From an uncultured Acidobacteriia bacterium (GTDB taxonomy: Bacteria > Acidobacteriota > Terriglobia > Bryobacterales > Bryobacteraceae): a stretch of 64,000 nt of DNA. Position 1 is the first letter of the stretch, and every line of letters starts with the position of its first letter. This document shows positions 32,945 through 59,461 of this stretch, piece by piece. The position numbers and the translations under genes are program-made. A model generated the notes under the pieces. That model saw only the letters and a list, made by a program, of their open reading frames with translations. It had not been told where the DNA came from and did no database searches. The stretch spans positions 124,001 through 188,000 of the forward strand of contig CAINNJ010000049.1 of NCBI GenBank assembly GCA_903851195.1. Direction: 5' to 3'.

Positions 32945-33502
32945 ATGAGCAGGATCACTCTGAAAGTGAACGGCGGCGCCCACACGGTGGATGTCGATCC
33001 GGCAACACCGCTGCTTTACATTCTGCGCAACGACCTGAATTTGCAGGGTCCGCATTTCGGCTGCGGACTCGGCCAGTGCGGCGCGTGCACGGTGATTATC
33101 AACGGCGCGGCCGTGCGTTCGTGCATCCTGCCCGCATCGGCGGTCAAAGGCGAGATCACCACGCTGGAAGGACTGGCGACCAACGGCAAGCTGCACCCGC
33201 TGCAGCAGGCGTGGATCGACGAACAGGCGCCGCAATGCGGGTTCTGTCAGAACGGGCAGATCATGACGGCGAAGGCAATGCTGGATAAGAATCCACATCC
33301 CACGGACGCGCAGATTCGCGAAAGCATGAATAACACGCTCTGCCGCTGCATGTCGTACAACCGGATCCAGGCAGCCATCAAACGGGCTCTTGAGAAACCG
33401 CTCGGGTTTCAGCCGCCGGACACGGCTGAACGGGTGGTTCCACTGACTCACGGCGCCGCGTCCGGCGGCTCCCGAGCTTCGAAAAAAGCGGTGGTGGCAT
33501 GA
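32945..33502 (+). CDS. Molybdenum hydroxylase small subunit (2Fe-2S), IorA-like
   Basis: This 185-residue subunit has two [2Fe-2S] clusters. The plant-ferredoxin-type cluster uses Cys40, Cys45, Cys48 and Cys60 (CGLGQCGACT plus a later Cys). The second uses Cys98, Cys101, Cys133 and Cys135 (QCGFCQNG and LCRCM). It passes electrons from the molybdenum cofactor of the large subunit encoded next to it. The sequence resembles the small subunit of isoquinoline 1-oxidoreductase and related aldehyde oxidoreductases. AAGGAG lies eight bases before the ATG. The stop overlaps the next ATG (ATGA). It has no export signal and probably travels with the Tat-targeted partner. Ser/Ala/Lys-rich residues extend the C-terminus. 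Confidence 0.93.
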   Translation: MSRITLKVNGGAHTVDVDPATPLLYILRNDLNLQGPHFGCGLGQCGACTVIINGAAVRSCILPASAVKGEITTLEGLATNGKLHPLQQAWIDEQAPQCGFCQNGQIMTAKAMLDKNPHPTDAQIRESMNNTLCRCMSYNRIQAAIKRALEKPLGFQPPDTAERVVPLTHGAASGGSRASKKAVVA

Positions 33503-42276: not shown

Positions 42277-42502
42277 ACAAGGAAAATAGCATCTGAAACC
42301 GAACGTGCGCCTGATCGCGCGTCCCAAATAGCCGGTGTGGGATGCGGCAATCGACGGGCGGCGCGCGGGCGACCGTGGTACAAAAAGGTGGAGAGGTCAG
42401 GCGCGAACCTCCGCGGAGCAGACCTTCCGATTGCCACCCGGCCGATTCCGCGCGCTTCCGGCGCAGATCGCTCCACAACAAACCAAATCAGGGATTACGC
42501 GC

Positions 42503-43846
42503 ATGTTTGGACGTGGCAACTGGGCCGTCTACGGGCTCGGGAAAGATTCGCTCGAGACCTTCGTAACCAGCCTGGAAGACCGGGCGGTCATGGTTGCGGC
42601 GTCGCAACTGGCGGCGTCCGCCATCACGCGGTATTCCAGCGTCGACACGGTCGGGATTAATCCGTTCAGCGGTCCCCGCCTCGATGAAGAACATCCCCTC
42701 GCTCCCGAACAGGAACCGGAACTCGCGGGCTATTCGACCTCGGAGCCGGACGAACGCGCCGCGCACACGCTTTCGGCCGAGATTCTGGACTGCGAAGGCT
42801 ATGGCGTGACCGAGGCGCAGTTCCGCCTTCACGCCACCATGCCGTGGTACGGACTCTGGGCGGTTTCCAATGAATGGAAAGACGTCAGCGATCTTAGCTC
42901 CATCAAAGAGCAGCGTTCTTACCGGCTGATGGAAAGACCTTATAAATTTCTTCAGGCCGGCGATAAGAAGAACATCGATCAGGACACGCTGGGAATCAAT
43001 GCTCCGGTGCGGAAACAGGTTCCGGTGCTGCTCGATTTCAACGACGGCCGCGTCTATATCGAGAGCACCGGCAAGCAGCTGCTGCAGATGATCACCGTTC
43101 GCCTGAGACTGCTGGGACTCGATATCTTCCCCGTGGCCTGGACTTATCGCGGCCGCGCCAACTGGCCCTCGGAAATTCTCAATCGTCTTTATGAGAAGAC
43201 GCAGTATCAGAGCGATTTCCAGAAGCGCGCCGACGAGGCCTCACGGTTCAAACCGAGCGAGATCGAAAAGCTGGAAGATAAAGAGGTGGAGTCCATCGTC
43301 AGGAGCTTTTTCTCGATGACCCAACTGGCGAGCGATCTCTGGATCGGCATCTCCGGCCCCGCGCAGATTCTGCTGCACGACGCGAGTCCGCCGATCGGCG
43401 TAAAAGCACCGACCAGCGCGACCACGCTGCTCAACGTCACCAGCGAGGCCAGAGTTCTTTCGGGTTCCATCACCTTCCAGGAACATATCTCGGGAACCAC
43501 GAAAAAGGGTGAGGAGTACACGTTCCGTAAGGACCTTCTCACCATCGCTCTGAACGACCGGATTAACTTTACCGACGTGGGCGCCGCCATGCTGCGCGGT
43601 TTCGGCATCCCCTCCTTTAAGAAAGACATCCTGCGCGAGATTAAATATACGAAACAGGTGCCTTCCATCGATCGGTTCTGGGGCACGTGGCTGCACGAAA
43701 TGAGCAACGGCGTGCGGATGATCGAGGCGGCGTTCCGCGAGCTTCTGGATCTCGACGGAAACCAGGAAGCCGGAATCCTTCCCATGCCGGTTGCGACGCC
43801 GACGGCGCCGACCAAGGAGCCGGCTGTGGAAGTTCTGGTCGTTTGA
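42503..43846 (+). CDS. Hypothetical protein, 447 residues, unrecognised family
   Basis: I do not recognise this protein. It lacks a signal peptide and membrane segments and is acidic-to-neutral. The N-terminal part (MFGRGNWAVYGLGKDSLETF, then VTSLEDRAVMVAASQLAASA) is followed by a segment ending in PVLLDFNDGRVYIESTGKQL. A helical charged region (ADEASRFKPSEIEKLEDKEV) and a beta-rich end (VLSGSITFQEHISG, YTFRKDLLTIALND) complete it. The mix suggests a multi-domain cytoplasmic protein, perhaps nucleic-acid related; a faint RdgC-like flavour in the VLLDFNDGRVYIES region is too weak to use. AGGGA lies eight bases before ATG 42503. It is divergent from the AraC-DinB gene and converges on the sulfatase gene. 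Confidence 0.7.
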   Translation: MFGRGNWAVYGLGKDSLETFVTSLEDRAVMVAASQLAASAITRYSSVDTVGINPFSGPRLDEEHPLAPEQEPELAGYSTSEPDERAAHTLSAEILDCEGYGVTEAQFRLHATMPWYGLWAVSNEWKDVSDLSSIKEQRSYRLMERPYKFLQAGDKKNIDQDTLGINAPVRKQVPVLLDFNDGRVYIESTGKQLLQMITVRLRLLGLDIFPVAWTYRGRANWPSEILNRLYEKTQYQSDFQKRADEASRFKPSEIEKLEDKEVESIVRSFFSMTQLASDLWIGISGPAQILLHDASPPIGVKAPTSATTLLNVTSEARVLSGSITFQEHISGTTKKGEEYTFRKDLLTIALNDRINFTDVGAAMLRGFGIPSFKKDILREIKYTKQVPSIDRFWGTWLHEMSNGVRMIEAAFRELLDLDGNQEAGILPMPVATPTAPTKEPAVEVLVV

Positions 43847-45841: not shown

Positions 45842-45972
45842 GGAGGAAATTCACTAAGTGCAATGTAATTGTGAATCCAGGTTATTCAAATATTTATCGT
45901 AAGGAAACTGCGTCTCGTGCCACAATCTATTTCGCGCAGCACCCCGAAGTCCTGCCGGAAGGAGAACGCGTT

Positions 45973-47685
45973 ATGTTACCGGATCGGTTTCACCTCGCCG
46001 GATTCCCGGCATTACGAAAAATAGCGCTGGGCGCGGCCGCCGTGCTGCTCCCCATCGGGGTCGTCGCCTTCGGGCAGGTAACGGCGGGCGCCGGCCCGGC
46101 CCAGTGGTTTGCCCGGCCCTCCGAGTTACCCAAAGATGTTTTCGATCTTCCGGAGTTCGATTCGAAACGTACCGGCGGCGTGCTGGATTTGGCGAAGGCC
46201 CAAGCCGAGCTCGAAGCGATGAGCGACACCGATCTTCCCGCTGCCCAGCGGCTTTTCGACATCTTTTCCTGGAGGGCTTTCGTCGCGCTGAACTGGCCCG
46301 CCACCGCCGCCGGCGCGCCCGACCCTTCAAAGAATTTCAGCAATATCGACGCGGCCACGCCGCTGGCCTGGGAGTTCTGGCAGCCGACATCGGGCGTCTT
46401 TCTTGCGAACGGCCAGAAGCCCGCATGGTCGCCTTCCATGAGCCATGCGCTCGATCACTTCAAAGCGGGATGGCGGCAGACCACCACGGTGAATGAAGGG
46501 AAACAGGCGTTCTCCGGGCCGCTGATCGATCAGAACGGCAAGTGGGTGCACTATGTCTCGCTGATGAATCGCGAAGAGTTCGATTACATCGTGGAGAACG
46601 AACTGTACAACCTGGAGGGTCAGGCGGCCTTCGTCCGCAACAGCAGGATCGAATTTCCGGTCAATACCGACGCGAAGCGCGGGGCCATCGAAATCAAGCT
46701 GGCGTGGAAGGTGCTGACGCCCGCCGAAGTCCGGAGCAACCGTTTCCTGGTGAAGCGCCTTCCGGTTGTGCAGTACATTCCGGCGGGCGCCGCGACCACC
46801 ACCGCGACGACCACCACGGCGGCCGCAATGCCGCCGGCGCATCTCTCCGGTCGCAGCGCCGATAACGGCACAAGCGCCTCGCCGACCGAGACTCTCGGCC
46901 TCATCGGCATGCACATCGCGATGCGGACTCGTTCTTCGCCGCAGTGGATCTGGGCGACCTTCGAGCAGATCGACAATACACGGCTCGATTTCGCCTCCGG
47001 AGACGCGAAGCATCCTCTGCCGAAACAGCCCAGCCTCTCCAATCCGGATAATCCCCTGGCTCTTCCCTACGCCAATCTGCTGCCCGCTTTTAATGCGCCG
47101 GCCACGGGCGGCGCGCCGCCCGCGGACTGGGACGAAGCGCTGCCGATTCCTCCCGTGGAAGTGCTGCGCCTGGTGCCTCCGCCCCAGGGAACGCAGAAGA
47201 TCAATGTGCAGGCGCAGGCGTTTCTGGGCTCGAAGGACTCCGTTCTCCGTTTTTATGAACTCAACGGCACCCAGTGGCCGAAGCACCCGAAAGCGCCATC
47301 CGTGCCCGGCGGCCAGGGCAGCGCGCCGGATAGTATTTCGCGCAAGATGCCCGGTGAAGTAGTTCCCGTCTATCTGACGAACTCGACCATGGAAACTTAC
47401 TTCCAGAAAGGCTATCAGCAGGCCGCCCCGCTGGAACAGGACAACCGTACCTCCGCCGTATTCGACACCACGCCCGTATTCGGGACCGAAAGCTGCGTCG
47501 GTTGCCACTATTCGGCCGGCGCCTGCATTGGCTTTAAGAAGGATTCCGCGGGCAAGCTAATTCTCGATGCCAACGGCAATAAGATTCCGATCTTCGGAGA
47601 AAATGCCAACGGCGGCTTAACCGGCAACGGCAACTTCAGCTGGCTTCTGCAGCTGGAAGCGAAGGCGAAGAGCCCGAAGAAGTAG
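45973..47685 (+). CDS. Exported haem-binding (CxxCH) protein of unknown role
   Basis: This 570-residue protein has an N-terminal signal or anchor (IALGAAAVLLPIGVVAFGQ) and one haem c site late in the chain (CVGCH, 508-512). The body contains QRLFDIFSWRAFVALNWPA and TPLAWEFWQPTSGVFL, a pattern I know from uncharacterised secreted proteins in several proteobacteria that also end in a c-type haem motif. A Thr/Ala-rich linker (AGAATTTATTTTAAAMPPAH) sits in the middle. AAGGAG lies about eight bases before ATG 45973; a longer frame from GTG 45871 has no such site. It opens a plus-strand run that later includes a second CxxCH protein, which suggests related redox roles. Confidence 0.75.
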   Translation: MLPDRFHLAGFPALRKIALGAAAVLLPIGVVAFGQVTAGAGPAQWFARPSELPKDVFDLPEFDSKRTGGVLDLAKAQAELEAMSDTDLPAAQRLFDIFSWRAFVALNWPATAAGAPDPSKNFSNIDAATPLAWEFWQPTSGVFLANGQKPAWSPSMSHALDHFKAGWRQTTTVNEGKQAFSGPLIDQNGKWVHYVSLMNREEFDYIVENELYNLEGQAAFVRNSRIEFPVNTDAKRGAIEIKLAWKVLTPAEVRSNRFLVKRLPVVQYIPAGAATTTATTTTAAAMPPAHLSGRSADNGTSASPTETLGLIGMHIAMRTRSSPQWIWATFEQIDNTRLDFASGDAKHPLPKQPSLSNPDNPLALPYANLLPAFNAPATGGAPPADWDEALPIPPVEVLRLVPPPQGTQKINVQAQAFLGSKDSVLRFYELNGTQWPKHPKAPSVPGGQGSAPDSISRKMPGEVVPVYLTNSTMETYFQKGYQQAAPLEQDNRTSAVFDTTPVFGTESCVGCHYSAGACIGFKKDSAGKLILDANGNKIPIFGENANGGLTGNGNFSWLLQLEAKAKSPKK

Positions 47686-47694
47686 CGGGAGCAC

Positions 47695-47731
47695 TCCGCG
47701 AGACTATTCCACATTCCGCGAGACTATTCCA
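47695..47731 (+). repeat. Near-tandem 17-bp repeat in the leader of the GH31 gene
   Basis: TCCGCGAGACTATTCCA occurs at 47695-47711 and again at 47715-47731, separated by three bases, just upstream of the AAAGGA and ATG 47744 of the GH31 gene. It may be an operator pair spaced by about two helical turns or a simple slippage duplication. Confidence 0.9.
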
Positions 47732-47743
47732 AAGGATAAAAGC

Positions 47744-50632
47744 ATGGATTTCCCCTTAGTTCCCGTAGACGGTTTCTCGCCCAACACCCCGGCCTGGAGC
47801 ACTGTCGGCAATATCGACAGCGTTGCGCCGGACCCCGCGGGACGCAACTTCACACTGCACTTCGGCACGCGGTCCCTGCTGCTCTCCGTGCTGGGCCCCA
47901 GCGCTTTCCGGTTGCGTTTCAACCCCGCGCCCGGGGCCGCTTACACCTCCGAATATTCGGTCGCCGTTACCACCCGCGATCTGGGGCTGAGCGGCGTGCA
48001 CATCACAACGACGCACCCGAGCGCGTCCCAATTGTTTATCGACACGGGAACCATCCGGATCGAAGTAGGCCTGGCGCCGTTCGCGATTTCCGTGGTCCGC
48101 AGCGCCACCGGGCAGTTACTGCATCGCGACGCACCCGGCCAGGGCGTCCTCTACATCCCGAATCAGGAAGTGATCGCGGTAATGAAGGATGTGCCCGCCG
48201 GCGCGCTTTACTTCGGATGCGGAGAAAAGGCGGGTTCGCAAACCGTGAAAAACGGTTTCAGCTTCACTTACTTCAATTTCGACAATTTCACTTACGGCGG
48301 GCCTTCCTTCGGCGCCGCGGGCCCGCTGAATCCGACTGAGCCGCTCTATTGCTCCATCCCGCTGCTGGTGGAGACCAACCCCGCCCCGTCCGGCGCGTTC
48401 GCCGGCCCGGCGTTCGCCTGCGGCGTCTTTCTCGACAATACGGCGCAGACCTTCATCAATGTGATGGCCAATATCGGCCGCACGGACATGGGCCGGAAGT
48501 ATTACATGGGCGCGCTCTATAACGAGCTCGACTATTACTTCTTCGCGGGCAACGGCGCGGGCGATATTCTCAGCCAGTACACCACGCTGACAGGACGCGC
48601 GCCGATGCCCCCAAAATATGTTTTCGGCCTGCATCAGGGCGCTTACGGCTATTACGATCAGTACAAGCTCGCCCAGGCCGCCTCCAGCTATCGCGCGGCG
48701 CGGATTCCCTGCGACGGTCTTCATATCGATGTCGATTTCCAGGACAACTACCGGACCTTCACCCACAGCGAGATCAAGTTCCCTCAGGCCGCCCATCTGT
48801 TCGAAAGATTGCACTCGGTCGGTTTCCGGATGAGCACCAACATCACGCCTCTCATCACGAATAACGTGCTCGACGAGAACGGGAGAACCTCGCCGCCTTA
48901 CCAGGCGCGCGTGGATCTGAGTAACGCGAAAGCCCTCATCCTGGACAAGCGCGCGGGGCAGACCGCTCCCCCGAATCCGCCCGTCTTCGCGGCCGGCGTC
49001 AATTACGGGAATAACCGGGGCAACAATCCTTACGCCAACGCCTATCCCCCGCTGACGATCAATAATCAGGGACAAATACCGCTGAAATCGCCCGGCAGCT
49101 ATCCGGATTTCGGCCTGGCAGCCGCGCGGACCGCATGGGGCCGGCAATACGCCCACCTGATTAACGACCTCGGTCTCGACATGATCTGGCAGGACATGAC
49201 GTGTCCGGCGCTCGACTCCACGCTGCCCGGCAACGTGCAGTACCAGAAGACGTTTCCGCAGGACTTACTGATGGCGCGGGAAGCCACCGACGCGGGCGGC
49301 AACGTGCAGGTGGAATATCTGCCCAACGCCAAACTCCACAACTCCTACGTGCTGAACCTGCTGCGCGCCACCTGGGAGGGAATCAATAAGCTCCGGCCCG
49401 CGAAGCGCAATTTCATCATCGCCCGCGGCGGGTACGCGGGGATGCAGCGCTACGCGGCGCTCTGGACGGGCGATTCCGCCTCCACATGGGATTTCCTGCG
49501 AATTAATATTCCGGAAGTTCTCAATCTGGGCCTTTCCGGCGTGCCCATCAGCGGCTGCGATATCGGTGGTTTCGCCAAGATCAACGTGGATGGCATCGAC
49601 ACCGCGTTTCCGGACTCCACCGTGGCGGGCACGCCGTTCCAGTCCGCCAGTATCATCGGCGGCATTACGAACTACGAACTGCTGACGCGCTGGATGCAGC
49701 TGGGCTCCTTCCTGCCGTGGTACCGCAACCACTACGACGGTTACAACAAGCAGTTCCAGGAACCCTATGCTTACGGTGAGCCGGTTCCCACCAATTGCCG
49801 CGCGTATGTGGAACTGCGCTATCGCATGATGCAGGTCTACTATGACGCCATGTACCACTGGACGCAGACCGGCCTGCCCATCGCGCGCGCGCTGTTTCTG
49901 AACGATCCGGGCGATCCGCGTGTCTACGCCAACCTGAACGACCAGTTCTTTGTGGGCGGCGATTTTCTGGTGGCGCCGGTAGTGAATCCGTTCGTCAGCC
50001 TCACGCCGCCGCAATCGCCCGGCCGCTCCGTCTATCTGCCGGCGGGCAGCAACTGGTACCAGTTCATGGACAACACGCAGCCCATTACCGGCGCCATCAC
50101 CGGCGGTCAGACCATCGGCATTCCCGCGCCGCTGAGCATGGTCCCGATTTACGTGCGCGCCGGCGCCATTCTGCCGTTCTGCGAACTCGAACAGTGGGTC
50201 GGGCAGTTGCCGGCGAATCCTTTGACATTCAACTGCTATCCGGGCCCGGACCGCGCGACCGACAGCCAGGCGTATCAGCTCTATCAGGACGACGGCACCA
50301 CCACGCAGGCGGCCTCCGCCGGGGCGTACCGGCTGTCGCGCATTTATCAGCAGACGCTGCAGAGCGGCGGTTCGGTGGCGCGTCAGGTGCGCGTGGCCCG
50401 TGTCCATGACAACTACACGCCCGCGGCTGCGTTCTACTATGTAGCGATTCTGGGAAGCATCACCTCGCCCGTCCATGTGCAGCGCGACGGCGCGACGCTG
50501 ACGAACGTGGGCGATTCCGTAAGCCTGGGCAAGTCCCCCGTCGATGCCTGGTACTGGAATCCTTCCATCCAGATCGCTTTTGCGAAGATCTTCGACAATC
50601 GCCCGGACACCACCGTGAAATTTTCGTACTGA
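47744..50632 (+). CDS. Glycoside hydrolase family 31 enzyme, alpha-1,4-glucan-lyase-like
   Basis: This 962-residue GH31 protein has an N-terminal beta-sandwich (about 1-270), a catalytic barrel and C-terminal beta domains. Barrel signatures include GLHQGAYGYYDQYKLAQA, DGLHIDVDFQDNYRTF and GLSGVPISGCDIGGF. The likely acid/base Asp is in WTGDSASTWDF (Asp577). The nucleophile motif, normally W-x-D-M-N-E, reads MIWQDMTCPA (Asp484). That WQDMT-x-PA form is what I know from alpha-1,4-glucan lyases, which release 1,5-anhydrofructose instead of glucose. The enzyme thus acts on alpha-glucans, with lyase versus hydrolase chemistry unsettled. No signal peptide is seen. AAAGGA lies seven bases before the ATG. 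A debranching enzyme lies downstream on the same strand. Confidence 0.85.
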   Translation: MDFPLVPVDGFSPNTPAWSTVGNIDSVAPDPAGRNFTLHFGTRSLLLSVLGPSAFRLRFNPAPGAAYTSEYSVAVTTRDLGLSGVHITTTHPSASQLFIDTGTIRIEVGLAPFAISVVRSATGQLLHRDAPGQGVLYIPNQEVIAVMKDVPAGALYFGCGEKAGSQTVKNGFSFTYFNFDNFTYGGPSFGAAGPLNPTEPLYCSIPLLVETNPAPSGAFAGPAFACGVFLDNTAQTFINVMANIGRTDMGRKYYMGALYNELDYYFFAGNGAGDILSQYTTLTGRAPMPPKYVFGLHQGAYGYYDQYKLAQAASSYRAARIPCDGLHIDVDFQDNYRTFTHSEIKFPQAAHLFERLHSVGFRMSTNITPLITNNVLDENGRTSPPYQARVDLSNAKALILDKRAGQTAPPNPPVFAAGVNYGNNRGNNPYANAYPPLTINNQGQIPLKSPGSYPDFGLAAARTAWGRQYAHLINDLGLDMIWQDMTCPALDSTLPGNVQYQKTFPQDLLMAREATDAGGNVQVEYLPNAKLHNSYVLNLLRATWEGINKLRPAKRNFIIARGGYAGMQRYAALWTGDSASTWDFLRINIPEVLNLGLSGVPISGCDIGGFAKINVDGIDTAFPDSTVAGTPFQSASIIGGITNYELLTRWMQLGSFLPWYRNHYDGYNKQFQEPYAYGEPVPTNCRAYVELRYRMMQVYYDAMYHWTQTGLPIARALFLNDPGDPRVYANLNDQFFVGGDFLVAPVVNPFVSLTPPQSPGRSVYLPAGSNWYQFMDNTQPITGAITGGQTIGIPAPLSMVPIYVRAGAILPFCELEQWVGQLPANPLTFNCYPGPDRATDSQAYQLYQDDGTTTQAASAGAYRLSRIYQQTLQSGGSVARQVRVARVHDNYTPAAAFYYVAILGSITSPVHVQRDGATLTNVGDSVSLGKSPVDAWYWNPSIQIAFAKIFDNRPDTTVKFSY

Positions 50633-50663
50633 CCAACGAACGGCTAACAGCGGAGAAAACAAT

Positions 50664-51398
50664 ATGCACATACTCAGCGGCAAAGGCCATTGGCCCAAGA
50701 TCGTTTTCACGTCCGATTTCCATCAGCTCGTTCGGGGCGACCTGATGCCGGGAACCTGCGCCATCCAGTACGACCCTCTCCGGATCGTCCCCGAAAGCGA
50801 GGTCCGGAAACTGCCTGCCACGCAGAGACCGGTGACGGCGTTCGTCCGTTGCCTCCCCGGCGGGGAGCTGTGGCAAGGCGAAATGCGGTTTGCCCCGGCC
50901 GCCACGCTGCTGCTGGACGAAGATTCCACGGGAGGCGGCACCATGCTCACGACAGGTTGCCCAGTCCCGAACGCATGCGACGAACTGGAGTGCTGGTTCT
51001 CGTATGTGGACGACAGCGGCAACACCCTCTGGGACAGCGCGATGGGCGCGAATTACCGGCTGCGCTTCCCGTCTCACGATATTCGGATCGAGCAGGCGGA
51101 AATCGAGGCCCGCGCGAATGAAGCGCAGGATCTTTTCCGGCTGCGGGTGGAAAGCGTCGGCACGGTGGATTCCGTGCTGCTGCGCTGGCGGTACGCCAAC
51201 GCCATCAATTCGGTGCGGCACGAGTGTCCGCTCACGCCCGCCGCGGACGGGGACAAGAAGGTCTGGACGCCTCCGGGGGGTGAACTGGGCGTTTCCTGGG
51301 ACACGCCGCTGGCATTCGATCTGGTTTACTACGTGGCCGGCCACAAACACACCGACGACAACCAGGGCAACTGGTACGTGGTGAGCAGACCGAACTGA
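50664..51398 (+). CDS. DUF6209-like beta-sandwich protein
   Basis: This 244-residue protein appears to hold two beta-rich domains. The first (about 10-135) resembles DUF6209: IVFTSDFHQLVRGDLMPG, IQYDPLRIVPES, AFVRCLPGGELWQGEMRF and ELECWFSYVDDSGNTLWDS, then MGANYRLRF. The second (about 140-244) ends in FDLVYYVAGHKHTDDNQGNW. No catalytic motif or signal peptide is visible. Family members are uncharacterised. The gene lies 31 bp after the GH31 gene, preceded by GGAGAA, and is followed by the ECF sigma factor gene, so it probably belongs to the same transcript as the GH31 enzyme. Confidence 0.7.
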   Translation: MHILSGKGHWPKIVFTSDFHQLVRGDLMPGTCAIQYDPLRIVPESEVRKLPATQRPVTAFVRCLPGGELWQGEMRFAPAATLLLDEDSTGGGTMLTTGCPVPNACDELECWFSYVDDSGNTLWDSAMGANYRLRFPSHDIRIEQAEIEARANEAQDLFRLRVESVGTVDSVLLRWRYANAINSVRHECPLTPAADGDKKVWTPPGGELGVSWDTPLAFDLVYYVAGHKHTDDNQGNWYVVSRPN

Positions 51399-51578
51399 AA
51401 AAGTTCGGTTTCCATCCACTGCATATTTATTTTTTTCGCGCTTGTCCTGTCCGGCCGGTTTTTCGCGCTTCAATCTGTGATGGTTGAACAGGCGCAGGAC
51501 GCGGCAGCCCGGGCTCACCCCGGCCCGGCTGACCGGGATGGACTTTTTAGCACCGGTGTATGCTACGTTTACTCTCCT

Positions 51579-52166
51579 ATGGAAACAGGGCGGGCGGAAA
51601 CGGCGCGGGGCGAAGTCACTTTTTTATTGAATCGCGTTTCGAACGGCGAAAGGGACGCGGAGGAAGCCCTGCTGCCACGGGTCTACTTCGAACTTCACCG
51701 CCTCGCTCTTTCACGCCTGAAAACCGAGCGGCGGGGACACACCCTGCAGGCCACGGCGCTGGTGAACGAAGCTTACCTTCGTCTTTGCGGCGCGGGCGGG
51801 CGGCAGTTTGAGAACCGCGCGCACTTTTTCCGTCTGTCCGCCCGGATGATGCGGCGAATCCTGGTGGATTATGCGCGTAAACGGGGCGCCTCAAGACGCA
51901 ACGGCGGTGGCACGCTCTGCTCTCTGGATGAAGCGATTGTGATCGCTCCGGAACAATCCGACAATGCCGTCCGCGTGGATGAACTCCTCGAGGAACTGGC
52001 CAGACTCAACGCCCGGCAGGCCCAGGTTGTCGAGATGAAGTTCTACGGGGGTCTGAACGAGGCGGAAATCGCGGCCGCGCTGGGCATACATATCCGCACG
52101 GTTCGCCGCGACTGGCTGCTGGCGCGCGCGTGGCTCCACGAACAGCTCAGTTCGTCTGTTTCCTGA
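51579..52166 (+). CDS. ECF-type RNA polymerase sigma factor (TIGR02999-like)
   Basis: This 195-residue regulator has ECF sigma regions 2 and 4. VYFELHRLALSRLKTERRGH and TLQATALVNEAYLRL give the region 2 start; the MMRRILVDYARKRGASRRNG segment follows. The C-terminal helix-turn-helix (LNARQAQVVEMKFYGGLNEA, EIAAALGIHIRTVRRDW) binds the -35. The LQATALVNEAYLRL motif is typical of the subgroup expanded in Acidobacteria and Planctomycetes, usually next to Ser/Thr kinases. Such a kinase gene follows directly here. There is no anti-sigma factor gene. The ATG at 51579 lacks a Shine-Dalgarno; the frame is open further upstream without family similarity. Confidence 0.92.
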   Translation: METGRAETARGEVTFLLNRVSNGERDAEEALLPRVYFELHRLALSRLKTERRGHTLQATALVNEAYLRLCGAGGRQFENRAHFFRLSARMMRRILVDYARKRGASRRNGGGTLCSLDEAIVIAPEQSDNAVRVDELLEELARLNARQAQVVEMKFYGGLNEAEIAAALGIHIRTVRRDWLLARAWLHEQLSSSVS

Positions 52167-52183
52167 AACCCGTGGATCCGGCG

Positions 52184-55000
52184 ATGGAAAGATCGGACTG
52201 GGACCGGGTAACCAGGCTCTTCGAACGTTTACTCGAAGGCGCGGAGCCCGAGGCTCTTCTCGCGGCGGAACCCGACCAGGCCGTCCGCGAGAAGGTTGCG
52301 GCGCTCTGGCGTCACCACTGTTCCGCTGAAACGGAAGAGTACCTTGCCGAGGCTGTAGGTTTCGAGGTTGGCATGGTATTTTCCATCGGGCAGATTTTGA
52401 TGGACCGCTTTCATATCGAAGCGCGGCTGGGCACGGGCGGTATGGGCGAGGTTTATCTCGCCTGGGATGCCCGAATGGAAGATCGCGTCGCGCTGAAGAC
52501 GATCGCCCGCCTGCTTGCCCCCTCGGCGCCGATACGGAGACGCTTTACCGCGGAAGTTCTGAATGCCCGCCGAATCACGCACCCGAATGTCTGCCGCATC
52601 TACGAACTGTTCGAAGAAGGAGAAGTCGCCTTCTTCAGCATGGAATACGTGCCGGGAACGCCGCTTTCCTCCATCGCTTCACTCACCCCGGCGAACGCGG
52701 TCACCCTGGTGCGACAAATGGCCGAAGCGCTCCATGCCGCGCATCAGACCGGCGTGGTGCACGGCGATTTCAAGCCATCCAACGTGATGGTGGTCGGCCC
52801 CGAGGCGGCAAACCCTCGCGCCGTGATCATGGACTTCGGGCTGGCGCGGGCACTGGACAGAACGTTGCATTCCTCGCTCGGCGCGGGCAACGAAGGTTTG
52901 TCTCTGCAGGCGGGAACTCTCGACTACATGGCCCCCGAACTCCGCGCCGGAGAGCAACCGACCGTTCGAAGCGATATCTACGCATTCGGCAAGGTCGCCG
53001 AGCACCTTCTGCCTTCGGACCGCAAATGGAAGGAGTGTACCCAGGAAATCGCGGACCGGCGGCCCGCCAGTCTGGAAAATGTAATCCGCCATCTGCAGCC
53101 GCGCCCGACCCGGCGTTACTGGCTGGCCGGACTTTCCCTGACGGCGGCCGCGGTGGCTTCCCGCTTCACCTTCGGCCATTCCGGCGGCTTCGGCTTCAGC
53201 CTTCCCGTCAACGCCCGGGTGCTAGTCAACGGCTTCCGCTTTCCGGCCAATGAGTCCGCGTCCGCAAAACTGATTCGCGGCGCCATGCTCACCGCGCTGC
53301 AGCAGACGCACAGAGGCCATTTCATTTCGGATGACGATCTGCTTCCCGTACTGGCACGGCTGCGAATCGGCGCCGGAGCGCCGCTCACGGGAGAGGCTCT
53401 GGAAAAGGTTCTGAAAGAGACCAGGGCCGAATTCCGGCTGGAGGGCGATGTGCGGCGGTCCGCGCAACGGTTTTCACTCGGCGTGCGGCTGCTTTCCTCC
53501 GGATCGCAAACCCTTCTGGAGGCCTCTTTCAGCGACGAGCCAGGCCCTGTCTCGCTGGCTCAGACGGCGGCCCTTTGGATTCGAAGCGCGAGCGGTGAGT
53601 CAGCGCGATCCATCGAGGCCAGCCCGTCGGACATCCGGACGTTGACGTCGTCCGCGCCCGAGGCGCTGCAAAAGTACTACGAAGGAATGGAGTATTACGC
53701 GGTGGCCAACATGGACCTCGCTATACTCCTTTTCCGCGAGGCCATACGGATCGACCCCTCCTTCGCGCAGGCCCACAGCATGTTGGGCATGACGCTGAAC
53801 GGGTCCCGCTATGACGAGGCCTTTCGCGAACTGGAAACCGCCCGGGCGCTCGCCGCGAAGCTTCCCCGCAAAGAGCGGGTCGCCATCGAAGTCAATTACT
53901 ATCGCCTCACGGAAGACCCGCGAAAGATGGTCGAGACCGCGACCGAGACCCTGGCCGACCGGCCCGACGAACCGCGCCGTCACGGTCTTCTGGCGCAGGC
54001 CTACAGCGTCTCCGGACGCTATTCCGAAGCCGTGGAATCCTGCCGGAAAGCGCTGGAACTCGCTCCCGACGACTGGATGCAGGTGCTTCGCCTCGAAGAC
54101 ACTTTGGTGGAAGCCGGCCGCTTCTCCGAAGCTCTGGAGGTCTTCCGTGCCGCCCTTGCGCGGCGCGTGGAAAACACATGGATCTACAGCGGCGCGGCTT
54201 CCGCCCTGATTGCGCTGGAACAGTATCCGGCCGCGCTCCGGCACATGGCCGCTCAGCCGGCGTGGGATGGCGGCGCGCTCGACGAACAATTCGTCAAAAT
54301 TCTGACGGGAAACCTGGCGCTTGCCGCCGCGGCCCTGGAGGAGCACCGCGCCTCCGGAATCGACCCGTTGAGCGCGTCCGGCAGCAACGAGTTTCTCTGC
54401 GGCGTGTATTACGCGCTGGATCAGTTCGCGATGGCGCGGAAGTGCCTTTCCGCGATGGCCGACATTCCCGTGTATCCCACCATGGCCGGCGAGTTTGCCC
54501 GCGCGGCTTCCTGGTGCCGCCGCCTGGACGACAGGCCCGCGCTGACGCGCATCCGCGCCGCCGTGAGCGCCCTCGCGAAGCAGTGGCCGAACGCCCGCAC
54601 GGAAGCGCTTGAAACGCATGTGCAGGCGCTGGATTTATGGGCGGCCAACTCCCCGGAAGAAGCGGTCCGCCTTCTTACCGCCGCCGTGGGGAAGGCCTGG
54701 TCCCTCCCCGCTCTCTTCGACCTGGCGGAACTCTGCACCTCCACCGCGCAATGGGAGCTTGCCGCGGAATACTGGGCCAAGTTCGATACTCACAGGGGCA
54801 CCGTGATTGTGAAGGGCTGGTGCCCCGTAATGCTGGTGCTGGGCTGGCTTTACCGCGCCCGCGCCGCCCAGGCCCGCAACGATTTCGCGCTCGCCGGTTC
54901 GTGCGCAAAAAAGGTCCTCGACCACTGGCAACGATTGAATCCACAGCTCGCAATCGTCAGTCAGGCCGGGCGGATTTACCAAACAAGCAAACCGAGCTGA
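52184..55000 (+). CDS. Ser/Thr protein kinase with C-terminal TPR region
   Basis: This 938-residue protein starts with a helical segment, then a kinase domain (about 76-300): LGTGGMGEVY, VALKTI, HGDFKPSNVMV, IMDFGLAR and GTLDYMAPELRAGEQ. The catalytic loop is HGD instead of HRD (residues 193-195), so it is a non-RD kinase; the DFG Asp is residue 217. The C-lobe is short, ending near RPASLENVIRHL. A membrane helix (YWLAGLSLTAAAVAS, about 312) is followed by a domain of about 170 residues and then TPR repeats from about 490 (MDLAILLFREAIRIDP, YSEAVESCRKALELAPDD). It is predicted to pair with the ECF sigma factor upstream. ATG 52184 is preferred over GTG 52172. Confidence 0.9.
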   Translation: MERSDWDRVTRLFERLLEGAEPEALLAAEPDQAVREKVAALWRHHCSAETEEYLAEAVGFEVGMVFSIGQILMDRFHIEARLGTGGMGEVYLAWDARMEDRVALKTIARLLAPSAPIRRRFTAEVLNARRITHPNVCRIYELFEEGEVAFFSMEYVPGTPLSSIASLTPANAVTLVRQMAEALHAAHQTGVVHGDFKPSNVMVVGPEAANPRAVIMDFGLARALDRTLHSSLGAGNEGLSLQAGTLDYMAPELRAGEQPTVRSDIYAFGKVAEHLLPSDRKWKECTQEIADRRPASLENVIRHLQPRPTRRYWLAGLSLTAAAVASRFTFGHSGGFGFSLPVNARVLVNGFRFPANESASAKLIRGAMLTALQQTHRGHFISDDDLLPVLARLRIGAGAPLTGEALEKVLKETRAEFRLEGDVRRSAQRFSLGVRLLSSGSQTLLEASFSDEPGPVSLAQTAALWIRSASGESARSIEASPSDIRTLTSSAPEALQKYYEGMEYYAVANMDLAILLFREAIRIDPSFAQAHSMLGMTLNGSRYDEAFRELETARALAAKLPRKERVAIEVNYYRLTEDPRKMVETATETLADRPDEPRRHGLLAQAYSVSGRYSEAVESCRKALELAPDDWMQVLRLEDTLVEAGRFSEALEVFRAALARRVENTWIYSGAASALIALEQYPAALRHMAAQPAWDGGALDEQFVKILTGNLALAAAALEEHRASGIDPLSASGSNEFLCGVYYALDQFAMARKCLSAMADIPVYPTMAGEFARAASWCRRLDDRPALTRIRAAVSALAKQWPNARTEALETHVQALDLWAANSPEEAVRLLTAAVGKAWSLPALFDLAELCTSTAQWELAAEYWAKFDTHRGTVIVKGWCPVMLVLGWLYRARAAQARNDFALAGSCAKKVLDHWQRLNPQLAIVSQAGRIYQTSKPS

Positions 55001-55021
55001 GTCATCAAGGAGAAAAAGGAA

Positions 55022-55687
55022 ATGTACGATTTTTGGTACGCCACGGGTGTGGCCATTATGCGGCCGAACCTTTTGGATGTGATCGAAGGGGCGCAACCAA
55101 CCTATAAGTTTGTGAAGCGCCGGCTGATCGAGACGGATAAGGACGGCAACGAAACAGAACTGCCGGACGTTCCGGGAAGCGGGCTCATGGAAAAGGAGTC
55201 GGCGACTCGCGTGAGGCTTGCGGTTGCCGGTTTCATCCGGGCTTTTTCGCCCGCGGCCCCTCCGGTGGGAATTTACACTGCCGGGCGCTTCTGCCAGCTC
55301 TTTGCACTGGGACAGTTCAGCAGCAATCACGCCGACAGCACTTTTCGAGACATTATCAACTTCGCCGGTAACGCTTATAAGACAGCTCTCCATGCAGGCC
55401 CGGAAAGCTCGCTGCCCGCGTTTCCCGCCTTTCTCGGTGCAATTCTGATGGACGGAGCCATCGGCGGCAATTTGGCTACTCCATCCGTCGATCAGGAAGA
55501 GGTTGCGGCGGAATTCGACGTTTTGCGGGAAACCCGAGACCGGGAGATCGCGGTGAACTTCGCGGAGCATCCGGACCTGATCAAAGCTTCCCGTTTTTTA
55601 ATGGTGGAGGACCGGAATCCGTGGCAGCGAGGGACCGGCGAACAGATGTTCTTCTGGAAGGACAGGAGCGAACGTGCGATTCCATAG
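55022..55687 (+). CDS. Hypothetical protein, 221 residues
   Basis: I do not recognise this protein. It lacks a signal peptide or clear membrane segment. Sequence features include MYDFWYATGVAIMRPNLLDV, a charged loop ETDKDGNETELPDVPGSG, a moderately hydrophobic part (TAGRFCQLFALGQF, AFLGAILMDGAIGGN) and a C-terminal KASRFLMVEDRNPWQRG. The ATG is preceded by AAGGA/AAAGGAA. Its 3' end overlaps the start of the haem-protein gene by 14 bp, which implies coupled expression. It starts 21 bp after the kinase gene and so probably belongs to the same transcript. Function is unknown, perhaps a partner of the following secreted protein. Confidence 0.7.
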   Translation: MYDFWYATGVAIMRPNLLDVIEGAQPTYKFVKRRLIETDKDGNETELPDVPGSGLMEKESATRVRLAVAGFIRAFSPAAPPVGIYTAGRFCQLFALGQFSSNHADSTFRDIINFAGNAYKTALHAGPESSLPAFPAFLGAILMDGAIGGNLATPSVDQEEVAAEFDVLRETRDREIAVNFAEHPDLIKASRFLMVEDRNPWQRGTGEQMFFWKDRSERAIP

Positions 55688-57176
55688 ACGCTACTGGATT
55701 GCAGGGTTTCTGATGGGCGCGGCCGCAATTTCCAGGCTGCGTCCGTCCCACGCTTCCGCGGCGAATCCCGAAGAGATCCTGGACCTTTACTTTAACCGAG
55801 CGCTGAAGGTTCATGATCTGCCGGAGAACCGGAAACCCGACCAGACGATCATTGAAAAACTCAATAAATCGGATATCGGGGTCGCTTACAAACCCATTCT
55901 TCCGGGGCGCAGCATCCTCATTCACGACTGCAAGCTTACGGAACCGTCCTGGTGCGACAATCCGGCATTTAGTTTCGAGTCGATGTTTCGCGAGGCCGCG
56001 AAAATTGCAAAACCGCGAGTCCTGAATGCCGAGAAACTGGTCACGGCGTGGTACAAAAACCTGACCAACCCGATTCAGGACGCGGTCCTGCCGTTCGACA
56101 CGCTGAGGAAGGCGCCCTTTCAGCTTCTGGCGATTGCCAACCGCATGGACCTGGCGCAACTGGGGGACCCGAGATCAGGCGCCGAAATCCATTTTGCGTA
56201 CGGCCTCAGGCCCGCGCCAGGTGCGACCACAGCTCCGGAAGTACTGGTGATTCTGGAGTTCCGCCTTCCCGAATTCGCGCCAGACAAGTTCAAGGATCTG
56301 GCGACAACCTGGGAGAAACTTTCGCATTCTCCACTCTCTACCTACCAAACCGACCTGCTGGACGCCCTGCAAAAGGCCGGGTTCTCCGCTGATCCGAACA
56401 AGCCCGAAGTGCCGACACGGTTGCGAAGCGTCAGTTCTCGCTTCAATCTTTCGGTGACAGGCTCCGAGTGGGGTCTCTCGCAGCTCACGCTGGACCCGGA
56501 ATCCACCGACGACACGGCGCACAGCCAGTTCGCCAAAGCCAGGCTTGAAGACCAGTTGCTCCCGAACGCGGACCAACTGCAACCCTACCCTGCGCTGTTC
56601 ACTGCGGGCCCGGGCATCCTGCCGGGAGGCACGCTTCATGTCCCCATAGGTGCTGATATCCAGGCGAAATCCGCAATCACCTACAATGCCTACGATATTG
56701 TCAGGCCGCCGGGCGGAGTCTGTGACGCGGAAGGAAACCGCGCGATCCTTGCCATTCAGCAGTGCACGTTCTGTCATGGTTCGGAGACGGGGACCAACTT
56801 CGCCCACATTGCCAATCGCGTGCCGGACGGACCAGGTGTGAAAGCTACGCCGTCCAGGCTGTCCACCTTTCTCGCTGGTAAAGGACGGGACGAATCCACC
56901 GCTCACCCAAACCTTGCGGACCTTTACTACGGCACCGGCCCGGTCAGCGCGGTGGAACTCAGTTACGACGTGTTCCCCCGGGCGGTCGATGGGACCTGTA
57001 CGAAATCGGAACCAAAAACGGTTTACCGCTACTTTCACGACATCGCCCGCAGAACTCTCTTCATGGCAGCGATCCTCACCGACCCGCTGCCGAACAGTTC
57101 GCAGGCTCATCTGAAAAAGGCGAAGCCTTCCGCCCCCGGGGCTGCTTCCAGATTCGGCACAACCATGAAGGACTGA
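55674..57176 (+). CDS. Exported haem-binding (CxxCH) protein, conserved unknown family
   Basis: This 500-residue protein has an N-terminal signal with basic start (MRFHRRYWIAGFLMGAAAIS) and one haem c motif (CTFCH, 364-368). The segment PFQLLAIANRMDLAQLGDPR followed by AEIHFAYGL is a recurring feature of large uncharacterised secreted proteins in myxobacteria and others, usually with a later CxxCHG site. The start is GTG 55674, within the end of the upstream gene, with AGGAG five bases before it. It is the second single-haem protein in this run, after the 45973 gene. The partners are unknown; a role in extracytoplasmic electron transfer or substrate oxidation is inference. Confidence 0.8.
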   Translation: MRFHRRYWIAGFLMGAAAISRLRPSHASAANPEEILDLYFNRALKVHDLPENRKPDQTIIEKLNKSDIGVAYKPILPGRSILIHDCKLTEPSWCDNPAFSFESMFREAAKIAKPRVLNAEKLVTAWYKNLTNPIQDAVLPFDTLRKAPFQLLAIANRMDLAQLGDPRSGAEIHFAYGLRPAPGATTAPEVLVILEFRLPEFAPDKFKDLATTWEKLSHSPLSTYQTDLLDALQKAGFSADPNKPEVPTRLRSVSSRFNLSVTGSEWGLSQLTLDPESTDDTAHSQFAKARLEDQLLPNADQLQPYPALFTAGPGILPGGTLHVPIGADIQAKSAITYNAYDIVRPPGGVCDAEGNRAILAIQQCTFCHGSETGTNFAHIANRVPDGPGVKATPSRLSTFLAGKGRDESTAHPNLADLYYGTGPVSAVELSYDVFPRAVDGTCTKSEPKTVYRYFHDIARRTLFMAAILTDPLPNSSQAHLKKAKPSAPGAASRFGTTMKD

Positions 57177-57238
57177 AAACTACCTTCGCACTCGCCAGGA
57201 ACCCCTGTCTCATGTCATAATCCGCAGATCAAACTGAC

Positions 57239-59461
57239 ATGCCGATTTTAGGTTCGCGCTTCTCCCCCGATGGCACCTCGGTGACGTTCACTCTCGCGTC
57301 GCCGAAGTCCACTCGGGTGGAACTCTGGATCTATGCGGCGCCCGTGGAAGCGGCGCCGATTCTGAAGCGTCCCCTCGCGCGCCAGCCGGACGGAACCCTG
57401 ACCGCCACCCTCACCGTCTCGGAACTGCCCGCCATCCCGCCAGGAGCCGCGATCTTCTACGGCTACCGCGCCTGGGGACCGAACTGGCCCTTCGACGCCG
57501 CCTGGACACCAGGCACTGCCCACGGCTTCGTCGCGGATGTGGATTCCGAGGGCAATCGCTTCAATCCGAATAAGCTGCTGCTCGACCCCTACGCGCTGGA
57601 GGTGAGCCACAACCCCGTGACGCCGCAGCATCCCGATCCCACGGCGTACCTGTCCGGTCCGTCGTTTCGCAATACCGACACCGGGCCTTTCGCGCCGAAG
57701 GGCATCGTGCTCCACATGCCCGCCGGCGATTTCGGCGTCAAACCCACCCACCCGTTCCGCGACGAGATCATTTACGAAGTCCATCTGCGCGGCCTGACGA
57801 AGAACGATCCCGCCGTGCCCGCCCATCTGCGGGGAACCTACGCCGGCTCCGCGCTGCGCGCGGGTTACCTGAAAGACCTGGGCATCACGGCAGTGGAATT
57901 CCTCCCGATTCACGACACACAGAACGCTCTCAACGACGCGCCGCACATGGCCTCGCTGCACAACTACTGGGGCTACGATTCCATCGGTTATTTCGCCCCG
58001 GATCGCCGGTATGCGGCCGACCAGTCGCCCGGCGGCCCTACGCGCGAATGGCTCGCCATGGTGAAGGCGTTCCACACGGCCGGGCTGAAGGTCTACGTCG
58101 ACGTCGTCTACAACCATCACGACGAGGACGATGTCGACCAGGGCTCAGGCACCACCGGGAAGGTATTTACCCTGCGCGGGCTCGACAACCCGAACTATTA
58201 CGAACTCCGCAGCCCTTCGCAGCCGAACTTTTACGAGGACGACAACGGCGTGGGCCCGAATCTGAACTGCGCCACCACGCCGGTGCGCAATCTGGTGATT
58301 GATTCGCTGCGCTACTGGACCCATGCGATGGGCGCCGACGGCTTCCGTTTCGATCTGGCGGCGGTCCTGGGCAACGCCAACGCGAAGGGCGGTTACTCCT
58401 TCAGCGCGGACGACCCGCACAACATTCTGAATCGAGCCGTGGCGGAACTGCCGGCGCGCCCCGCCGCGGGCGGTCCCGGTGTGGATCTGATCGCCGAGCC
58501 CTATACGGCCAACGGCAACGGGCAGGAACAGGGGAAGTTTCCCGTGGGATGGTCCGAGTGGAACGACCGTTTTCGCGACGTCTTCCGCGCGTCCCAGAAC
58601 AAGCTGGGATTCAAGCCGGTAACCCCCGGAGCCATGGCGCTTCGGTTCGCCGGCTCCGACGACCTGTTCGGACCGCGCGGCCGCAAACCGTGGAACTCCG
58701 TGAACTACATCGTGAGCCACGACGGTTTCACCCTGCGCGATCTGTACTCGTTCAATCAGCCGATGAACAACCAGCCATTTCCCTTCGGACCTTCCGACGG
58801 CGGGCGCAGCGCGGCGGACGAGATGTGCTGGGATCACAGCGGAGACCCTGTCCAGCGACTCCAGGCAGTGCGCACCGCGCTTGCGATCCTGCTGCTTTCC
58901 GCCGGCACGCCGATGCTCACAGGCGGCTCTGAATTCTTCCGCACCCAGTTCGGCAATAACAACGCCTTTAATCTGGACACCTCGGCGAACTGGCTGGACT
59001 GGCCGGCGGCGGCAAAGCAGACCGCTCTGACGAACTTTACCCGCAATCTCTGTATGTTCCGCCGCGCGCATGCCTGTCTGCGTCCGAACAATTTCTTCAC
59101 CGGGACCGACCACAACGGCAACGGCCTGAAGGATCTGACCTGGTATACCGATTCCGGCGCCGAAGTCGACCAGGCGTATTTCGCGAATCCCAATAATCAC
59201 TTCCTCGCTTTCCGGCTCGACGGCACGGAGGCGGGCGATACGGCGGTTTCGGTCTACGTGGCTTACAACGGCTGGGTCGATCCGATTACAACGACCATCC
59301 CCGCGCCTCTGGCGGGCAACAGCTGGTTCGTGGTGGGGGACACCTCATCGGCGGCGGAAACGTGGGGGAACATGCGGGCCGCGGGTCAGGAAGTGAAGCT
59401 GACCGGAAATCGGTACGTGGTGAACGGCCGGTCCGTGGTGCTTTTGATCGAGCGCGTTTAG
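57239..59461 (+). CDS. GH13 glycogen/starch debranching enzyme (GlgX/isoamylase type)
   Basis: This 740-residue enzyme hydrolyses alpha-1,6 branches of glycogen or starch. An N-terminal CBM48-like beta domain (FTLASPKSTRVELWIYAAP) is followed by the GH13 barrel: region I DVVYNHHDE, region II GFRFDLAAVLG (nucleophile Asp372), region III LIAEPY (acid/base Glu420) and region IV SHDGF (His494-Asp495). The order and the long insertions fit the GlgX/isoamylase subfamily (GH13_11). No signal peptide is seen, so it acts in the cytoplasm. It follows the haem-protein gene after 62 bp on the same strand as the GH31 enzyme. Together the two could dismantle branched alpha-glucans. There is no strong Shine-Dalgarno before ATG 57239. 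Confidence 0.93.
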   Translation: MPILGSRFSPDGTSVTFTLASPKSTRVELWIYAAPVEAAPILKRPLARQPDGTLTATLTVSELPAIPPGAAIFYGYRAWGPNWPFDAAWTPGTAHGFVADVDSEGNRFNPNKLLLDPYALEVSHNPVTPQHPDPTAYLSGPSFRNTDTGPFAPKGIVLHMPAGDFGVKPTHPFRDEIIYEVHLRGLTKNDPAVPAHLRGTYAGSALRAGYLKDLGITAVEFLPIHDTQNALNDAPHMASLHNYWGYDSIGYFAPDRRYAADQSPGGPTREWLAMVKAFHTAGLKVYVDVVYNHHDEDDVDQGSGTTGKVFTLRGLDNPNYYELRSPSQPNFYEDDNGVGPNLNCATTPVRNLVIDSLRYWTHAMGADGFRFDLAAVLGNANAKGGYSFSADDPHNILNRAVAELPARPAAGGPGVDLIAEPYTANGNGQEQGKFPVGWSEWNDRFRDVFRASQNKLGFKPVTPGAMALRFAGSDDLFGPRGRKPWNSVNYIVSHDGFTLRDLYSFNQPMNNQPFPFGPSDGGRSAADEMCWDHSGDPVQRLQAVRTALAILLLSAGTPMLTGGSEFFRTQFGNNNAFNLDTSANWLDWPAAAKQTALTNFTRNLCMFRRAHACLRPNNFFTGTDHNGNGLKDLTWYTDSGAEVDQAYFANPNNHFLAFRLDGTEAGDTAVSVYVAYNGWVDPITTTIPAPLAGNSWFVVGDTSSAAETWGNMRAAGQEVKLTGNRYVVNGRSVVLLIERV

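Follow-up and report, generated by a model that had tools for sequence, protein, structure and literature searches.

A candidate alpha-1,4-glucan lyase cluster beside an ECF43-like sigma factor–kinase unit: probably two adjacent modules at one Bryobacteraceae locus

We examined a stretch of 64,000 nucleotides from an uncultured Acidobacteriia bacterium of the Bryobacteraceae (GenBank assembly GCA_903851195.1, contig CAINNJ010000049.1, positions 124,001 to 188,000), referred to as the window, and in it a locus of eight consecutive plus-strand genes (Table 1). They encode two proteins with a CXXCH motif (haemA and haemB), an enzyme of glycoside hydrolase family GH31, a weakly DUF6209-like protein, an extracytoplasmic function (ECF) sigma factor, a Hanks-type Ser/Thr kinase (STPK) with tetratricopeptide repeats (TPRs), an unknown protein (unk) and a GH13 debranching enzyme (GlgX). 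The initial annotation had read these genes as a single regulated route in which products of glucan breakdown are oxidised at the cell surface. The genes are present where it had placed them, mostly with short gaps and with the haemA open reading frame (ORF) open further 5', and Pfam and NCBIfam uphold the GH31, debranching enzyme, sigma factor and kinase-TPR assignments. As to the route itself, the locus probably consists of two adjacent functional modules, an anhydrofructose route (module A) and a self-contained phospho-activated sigma system (module B).

Table 1. Genes and promoter-like motif of the locus, with positions in the window and supporting features.
Feature	Position	Strand	Remarks
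haemA	45973..47685	+	N-terminal hydrophobic segment, single C-terminal CXXCH; ORF open from 45871
GH31, alpha-1,4-glucan-lyase type (putative)	47744..50632	+	PF01055 E 1e-78; STNIT, WQDMTCPA, WTGD
Weakly DUF6209-like protein	50664..51398	+	PF19714 E 2e-4, 21.5 bits
Promoter-like motif TGTCC-N18-CGCTT	51443..51470	+	kept 5' of the ECF gene in three genomes
ECF sigma factor, ECF43-like	51579..52166 (start inferred; ORF open from 51477)	+	TIGR02999 E 1e-55; PF07638; QATA in region 2.2
Hanks-type Ser/Thr kinase (STPK), C-terminal TPRs	52184..55000 (start inferred; ORF open from 52130)	+	PF00069 E 6e-33
unk, unknown protein	55022..55687	+	sole relative found: genome G090
haemB, single CXXCH	55674..57176	+	overlaps unk by 14 bp
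GlgX/isoamylase-type GH13 debranching enzyme	57239..59461	+	TIGR02100 E 5e-141; GFRFD, EP and HDG motifs present

Position 45973 is an internal ATG within the frame of the haemA ORF (45871-47685), and for the kinase we would guess a start at the later ATG at 52184, by which the overlap of the ECF and kinase ORFs would disappear. In the kinase HGD stands in place of HRD, and its earlier description as a non-RD kinase is therefore right. The GC content at third codon positions is 0.75-0.81 in haemA, GH31, the DUF6209-like gene and GlgX versus 0.67-0.76 in the ECF gene, STPK, unk and haemB; the difference is small and the ranges overlap, in mild agreement with two modules. The likeness to DUF6209 is present, as had been noted, but stays below the PF19714 cut-off of 27.5 bits, and the DUF6209-like protein alone gave no match in the PDB at E ≤ 1. 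No match was obtained for haemA, haemB and unk in Pfam (E ≤ 0.1) or in NCBIfam, PADLOC or PHROGs (E ≤ 0.01). None of the five unnamed proteins had a PADLOC or PHROGs match, and for them an origin from a defence system or a phage was rejected.

The feature that most changes the picture is the type of the GH31 enzyme. The alpha-1,4-glucan lyase of PDB entry 2x2h aligned to it in one stretch (phmmer, 168-913) with 33% identity over aligned columns, and the 2x2h chain numbering fits the lyase numbering with an offset of 11. Asp665 we take to be the acid/base of the alpha-1,4-glucan lyase; its equivalent (D in WTGD) and that of Asp553 (D in WQDMTCPA) are both present in the alignment with 2x2h. Lyases are described as using Asp553, with Asn459, an Ile in glycosidases, assisting elimination (excerpts of PMC12441222). 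Asn at the 459 position, within STNIT in the window protein, occurs together with WQDMT.PA in all four lyase-type sequences (2x2h, the window and the genomes G339 and G727 introduced below), and Ile together with DMNEP in 17 of 17 hydrolase-type proteins of the same phylum. Eight GH31 proteins from plasmids have Ile (five), Val (two) or Ser (one) and never Asn at this position; their nucleophile motif is DMNEP in the five with Ile and DMGEP in the three with Val or Ser, and none has DMT.

In a tree of 29 GH31 sequences, which holds one known lyase (2x2h, residues 216-973), the clade of 2x2h, the window protein and the G339-type proteins is separated from the 25 others with an SH value of 1.000 and an ultrafast bootstrap of 100. 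Moreover, 18 residues are unique to the lyase, the window and G339, whereas the lyase shares at most 2 such residues with any one of 300 control pairs. From residues and clade we infer that the enzyme is a putative alpha-1,4-glucan lyase. The initial annotation had overlooked this, and the likely product shifts from glucose to 1,5-anhydrofructose. 'Fungi and red algae' are named as bearers of glucan lyase chemistry in excerpts of PMC12441222. We found no characterised bacterial alpha-1,4-glucan lyase in the titles and abstract openings of the papers listed by our literature searches, and the GH31-subfamily or lyase literature may already note bacterial members. The enzyme is mentioned in genome papers, e.g. 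PMC6780248 and PMC12903740. In a review from 2024 on alpha-glucan enzymes of prokaryotes (PMC11046441) the word 'lyase' is indexed once for the full text and is absent from the first 300,000 of its 445,374 characters.

The debranching enzyme scores below the TIGR02100 cut-off (470.9 versus 640.9 bits), and judging from its sequence it may work like a canonical GlgX though it is not filed as one. GlgX was found in 53 of 100 genomes of the order (E ≤ 1e-60; here and below, the counts over 100 genomes of the order and 396 genomes of the phylum include the genome of the window). In the Bryobacterales genome G090 the closest GlgX, with 74% identity to that of the window, lies in a 20-kb stretch without further cluster relatives and on a contig other than that carrying module B. 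The enzymes of G339 and the window fall on different branches (support 0.884 for the G339 placement), so that this GH31 may on two occasions have acquired a debranching enzyme as partner; the different branches would fit either separate recruitment or gene replacement. A simple hydropathy scan revealed no N-terminal hydrophobic segment in GH31 or GlgX, no signal peptide was seen in GH31, and a Pfam scan recognised no dehydrogenase among the eight genes. The proposed oxidation at the cell surface is therefore left without an enzyme at this locus.

The association of haemA, GH31 and GlgX recurs. In G339, which belongs to another family of the same class, haemA (44% identity), GH31 (43%) and a GlgX-type gene (31-32%) follow one another directly, separated by 68 and 5 bases; the three are also contiguous in genome G708, and haemA-GH31 are adjacent in G727, where the contig ends. 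GH31 matches with E ≤ 1e-60 were obtained in 22 of 300 sampled genomes of the G339 family; three of them are lyase-type (G339, G708 and G727), the 17 others that were read are hydrolase-type, and two had no locus to read. A close haemA (96-100% identity to that of G339) is present in the same three genomes of the 300, adjacent to the lyase-type GH31 in each, and in the remaining 17 genomes of this family with haemA matches the identity is at most 43%. Because haemA-GH31-GlgX recurs in another family, the earlier view that glucan enzymes and a haem protein belong together stands for haemA; haemB probably falls in a separate module.

In the order, GH31 was found in the genome of the window only (one of 100, E ≤ 1e-60), and in the phylum in two of 396 genomes, this one and G339 (E ≤ 1e-50). 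haemA was found in eight of the 100 genomes of the order, with at most 37% identity apart from its own place. The DUF6209-like gene occurs only in the genome of the window among these 100 and is absent from the G339 cluster. A plasmid search returned 13 records for haemA, 88 for GH31, all below 60% identity, and none for haemB or the DUF6209-like gene; viral contigs contained no haemA. The whole cluster was not found in the 100 genomes of the order, a search made with six genes in which ECF and STPK were not searched individually. Conservation of the gene order in other Bryobacterales had been proposed as a check; two sub-sets recur elsewhere, but the eight-gene whole was seen nowhere else.

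Both CXXCH proteins had been described as exported single-haem proteins. Each indeed has one CXXCH, but neither matches PF00034 (E ≤ 0.1) and both are absent from the 60 PF00034 places of their own genome; haem binding is therefore predicted from CXXCH alone. A hydrophobic segment in haemA, averaging 2.03 over residues 51-69 of its long ORF, agrees with export, but the start of haemB reaches only 0.74, and its export was judged by eye only. The family profiles of haemA and haemB gave no PDB match at E ≤ 1, and no BLAST relation between the two proteins was detected.

In Azospirillum ramasamyi, Bradyrhizobium quebecense and genome G074, genes for a GMC oxidoreductase and a small subunit of sorbitol-dehydrogenase type adjoin relatives of haemA (in G074 the small subunit matches PF12318 below threshold); in Methylobacterium indicum the neighbour is a molybdopterin gene. 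No such oxidoreductase gene is annotated near the Gloeothece relative, and a further relative is present in an unannotated Pseudoalteromonas record. Among distant haemA relatives in the G339 family (22 found, 20 loci fetched), a GMC gene is among the neighbouring ORFs in four loci, and in the other 16, some of which lie at the end of a contig, the ORFs shown include no reference gene. PF12318 had no match in the genome of the window, but this says little, as 14 controls likewise had none. These neighbourhoods make it plausible that haemA has a redox role; one branch of the family is likely to transfer electrons, and for the branch at this locus this would be only a guess.

Several other arrangements concern haemA paralogues or redox genes. 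In G074 a stretch (L034, 5260-12744) contains haemA, a small subunit resembling that of FAD-dependent sorbitol dehydrogenase, a GMC oxidoreductase, a weakly ADC-like protein, a second haemA and a further CXXCH protein, and is partly repeated in L127 and L124. In two genomes (L137, 5238-12498, and L141, 818-8581) haemA paralogues adjoin a related protein of 665-694 amino acids (26%, E 3e-55); a kinase-like ORF adjoins the paralogues in L137, and in L141 it lies on the opposite strand at a distance of a few kb. The window itself encodes, about 10 kb upstream of the cluster (32945-35841, +), a small [2Fe-2S] protein followed by a molybdopterin-binding protein, the two ORFs overlapping by four bases; the start of the latter has RRGFLK, twin-arginine-like by eye, with no evidence of a link to the cluster. 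At 10351-12198 (+) one protein joins a glucose/sorbosone dehydrogenase domain to a cbb3-type cytochrome c domain.

Module B occurs as a unit in G090, a Bryobacterales metagenome-assembled genome (contig PMUP01000073.1), where ECF, STPK, unk and haemB are found in the same order. The overlap of unk with haemB pointed out earlier is likewise the same 14 bp (L033, 7868-7881); the contig ends 124 bases past haemB, and ahead of ECF two predicted genes run in the opposite direction. In G024, a genome of the window's genus, ECF-STPK is accompanied by a distant haemB (27%), without unk. The stretches fetched around these loci, 9.4 kb in G090 and 13 kb in G024, contain no GH31 or GlgX relative. haemB was found in four and unk in two of 100 genomes of the order, unk only in the genome of the window among 396 of the phylum, and a haemB search of the genome contigs gave one locus. 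In G024 the ECF-STPK-haemB unit is preceded, at a distance of about 700 bases, by a second ECF gene (L035, 240-869, +) that is 41% identical to that of the window.

In ECF43 sigma factors an uncharged motif with a Thr (consensus QTTA) replaces the acidic DxxD, PknS has periplasmic TPRs and EcfK reads QATE (excerpts of PMC13147305 and PMC8999054). Region 2.2 reads QATA in the window and in G090 and QPTE in G024, with one acidic residue as in EcfK. The window protein thus lacks the acidic DxxD, has a Thr in region 2.2 and is encoded adjacent to a Hanks-type kinase.

Upstream of the ECF gene, TGTCC-N18-CGCTT is common to the window, G090 and G024. A 5+5 pair common to all three regions at a fixed spacing of 14-19 was obtained in 0 of 2000 mononucleotide shuffles, and a 5+4 pair in 4 of 2000; the shared motif could also stem from common descent of the upstream DNA. 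A promoter search before each gene had been proposed as a check of the single route. Among the nine genes checked (the eight and an M20 peptidase gene) only the ECF gene has the full motif in front of it, and the other seven cluster genes reach best scores of 6-7 out of 10, the commonest background score being 7. Before the M20 peptidase ORF, at about 59500 (+), TGTCC-N18-AGCTT matches 9 of 10 positions, a score as high as in 71 of 3000 random 200-mers.

Taken together, the grouping is beyond chance for haemA-GH31-GlgX and for ECF-STPK-unk-haemB, and module B probably has a job of its own, separate from that of module A. Module A would consist of haemA and GH31, with the DUF6209-like gene, and of GlgX placed last. 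GlgX, judged by its family, would cleave the alpha-1,6 branches of glycogen or limit dextrin, and GH31, judged by its lyase-specific residues and clade, would break alpha-1,4 bonds by elimination, yielding 1,5-anhydro-D-fructose. haemA may be a membrane-anchored c-type haem protein that is attached to this route and probably relays electrons from an oxidoreductase encoded elsewhere. In module B the kinase would sense a cue and phosphorylate the QATA threonine of the sigma factor, which would then transcribe its own operon from TGTCC-N18-CGCTT, leading to unk and haemB, and transcription would perhaps read through into GlgX. A more far-reaching reading, which we put forward only tentatively, is a redox-coupled pathway of Acidobacteriota in which debranching and elimination convert cytosolic glycogen to 1,5-anhydrofructose, and this sugar or a derivative of it is oxidised via a dedicated single-haem membrane protein.

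Several observations weigh against this picture. A first, gappier MAFFT alignment gave Ile (window) and Val (G339) in the Asn459 column; Asn in the window is supported by a larger alignment without a gap there and by the phmmer pairing. The lyase branch is long and the tree contains a single known lyase. G339, G708 and G727 are 96-99% alike over the cluster and therefore count as one independent case besides the window, so that the independent haemA-GH31 cases are really two, and the GH31 of G708 is split by an in-frame stop (L120, G708:C2, 7308-10211, -). In the window GlgX is placed beyond module B, and its link to GH31 is therefore weaker there. As haemA looks membrane-anchored and GH31 and GlgX look cytosolic, they may not meet, and neither cluster, that of the window or that of G339, contains a recognised anhydrofructose reductase, dehydratase or dehydrogenase. 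The AlphaFold models of haemA (one sequence, pLDDT 30.5) and haemB (two sequences, pLDDT 32.2) are unusable. As to module B, the window contains three copies of a looser TGTCC-N17-19-CG[CT]T, close to what would be expected, and the best 19-residue segment between kinase domain and TPRs (331-349) has a mean of 1.11, with none reaching 1.5 in three homologues.

The best-surviving alternative, possible though doubtful, is that the genes are chance neighbours, an acquired haemA-GH31-DUF6209 segment having landed next to an ECF-STPK operon and a copy of GlgX without any functional link. The patchy distribution of GH31, the small GC difference between the gene groups and the lack of whole-cluster conservation agree with it. 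Chance, however, accounts for the module boundaries but not for the repeated haemA-GH31-GlgX association, and this explanation departs from the two-module reading only as to whether there is any communication between the modules.

We regard it as rather unlikely that the lyase-clade GH31 acts as a hydrolase or transglucosidase of unusual specificity in ordinary glycogen or maltodextrin catabolism, which would leave the haem protein unexplained. Its best NCBIfam matches are alpha-glucosidase and alpha-xylosidase models, all far under their cut-offs, and summed PDB scores for maltase-glucoamylase and 6jr6 exceed that for the lyase; yet the lyase clade is strongly supported and the window has Asn at the position that separates lyases from glycosidases according to excerpts of PMC12441222. 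Least probable is the single regulated locus, with sigma factor and kinase governing both glucan breakdown and cell-surface oxidation of its products by the two haem proteins: co-orientation with mostly short gaps, the merely 62 bp between haemB and GlgX and the oxidoreductases beside some haemA relatives speak for it, but module B occurs as ECF-STPK-unk-haemB and ECF-STPK-haemB apart from GH31 and GlgX in the fetched stretches, one of them cut off by the contig end, the closest GlgX of G090 stands alone on another contig, the full motif is confined to the ECF gene and the two CXXCH proteins are unrelated by BLAST.

Two adjacent modules thus remain the probable reading, which splits an over-broad eight-gene story into two separately testable units. 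If GH31 is a lyase, bacteria can degrade glycogen by elimination, which, if true, would be a third kind of bacterial glycogen breakdown besides phosphorolysis and hydrolysis, and the conserved haem partner yields a testable prediction on the fate of the product. Elsewhere in the window, a long ORF at 42335-43846 (+) matches nothing in Pfam, PADLOC and PHROGs from 42491 onward.

Each part of the locus resembles a known system and departs from it. The GH31 protein shares clade, nucleophile Asp, acid/base Asp, Asn459 and WQDMT.PA with the alpha-1,4-glucan lyase (EC 4.2.2.13) of the red alga Gracilariopsis (2x2h); unlike it, the window protein is bacterial, has no targeting peptide that we could see and is clustered with a CXXCH protein and a debranching enzyme. 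With glycogen operons the locus has in common a GlgX-type GH13 enzyme with its catalytic motifs, but the other seven genes match no family of the classical operons, and GlgX itself scores under the family cut-off. Membrane sugar dehydrogenases dependent on flavin adenine dinucleotide (FAD) consist of a small subunit, a GMC flavoprotein and a cytochrome c, and the cytochrome subunits of the known ones are multi-haem. Relatives of haemA occupy the cytochrome position beside such pairs, but haemA has a single haem motif and the locus encodes no flavoprotein. Module B resembles the pairs of ECF43 sigma factor and Hanks-type kinase, EcfP/PknT of Vibrio and EcfK/PknS of Xanthomonas citri, in the ECF gene beside a kinase gene, the uncharged QATA with its Thr and, as in PknS, the C-terminal TPRs; unlike these systems it has no clear transmembrane segment and is tied to unk and a CXXCH protein instead of type VI secretion or the polymyxin response.

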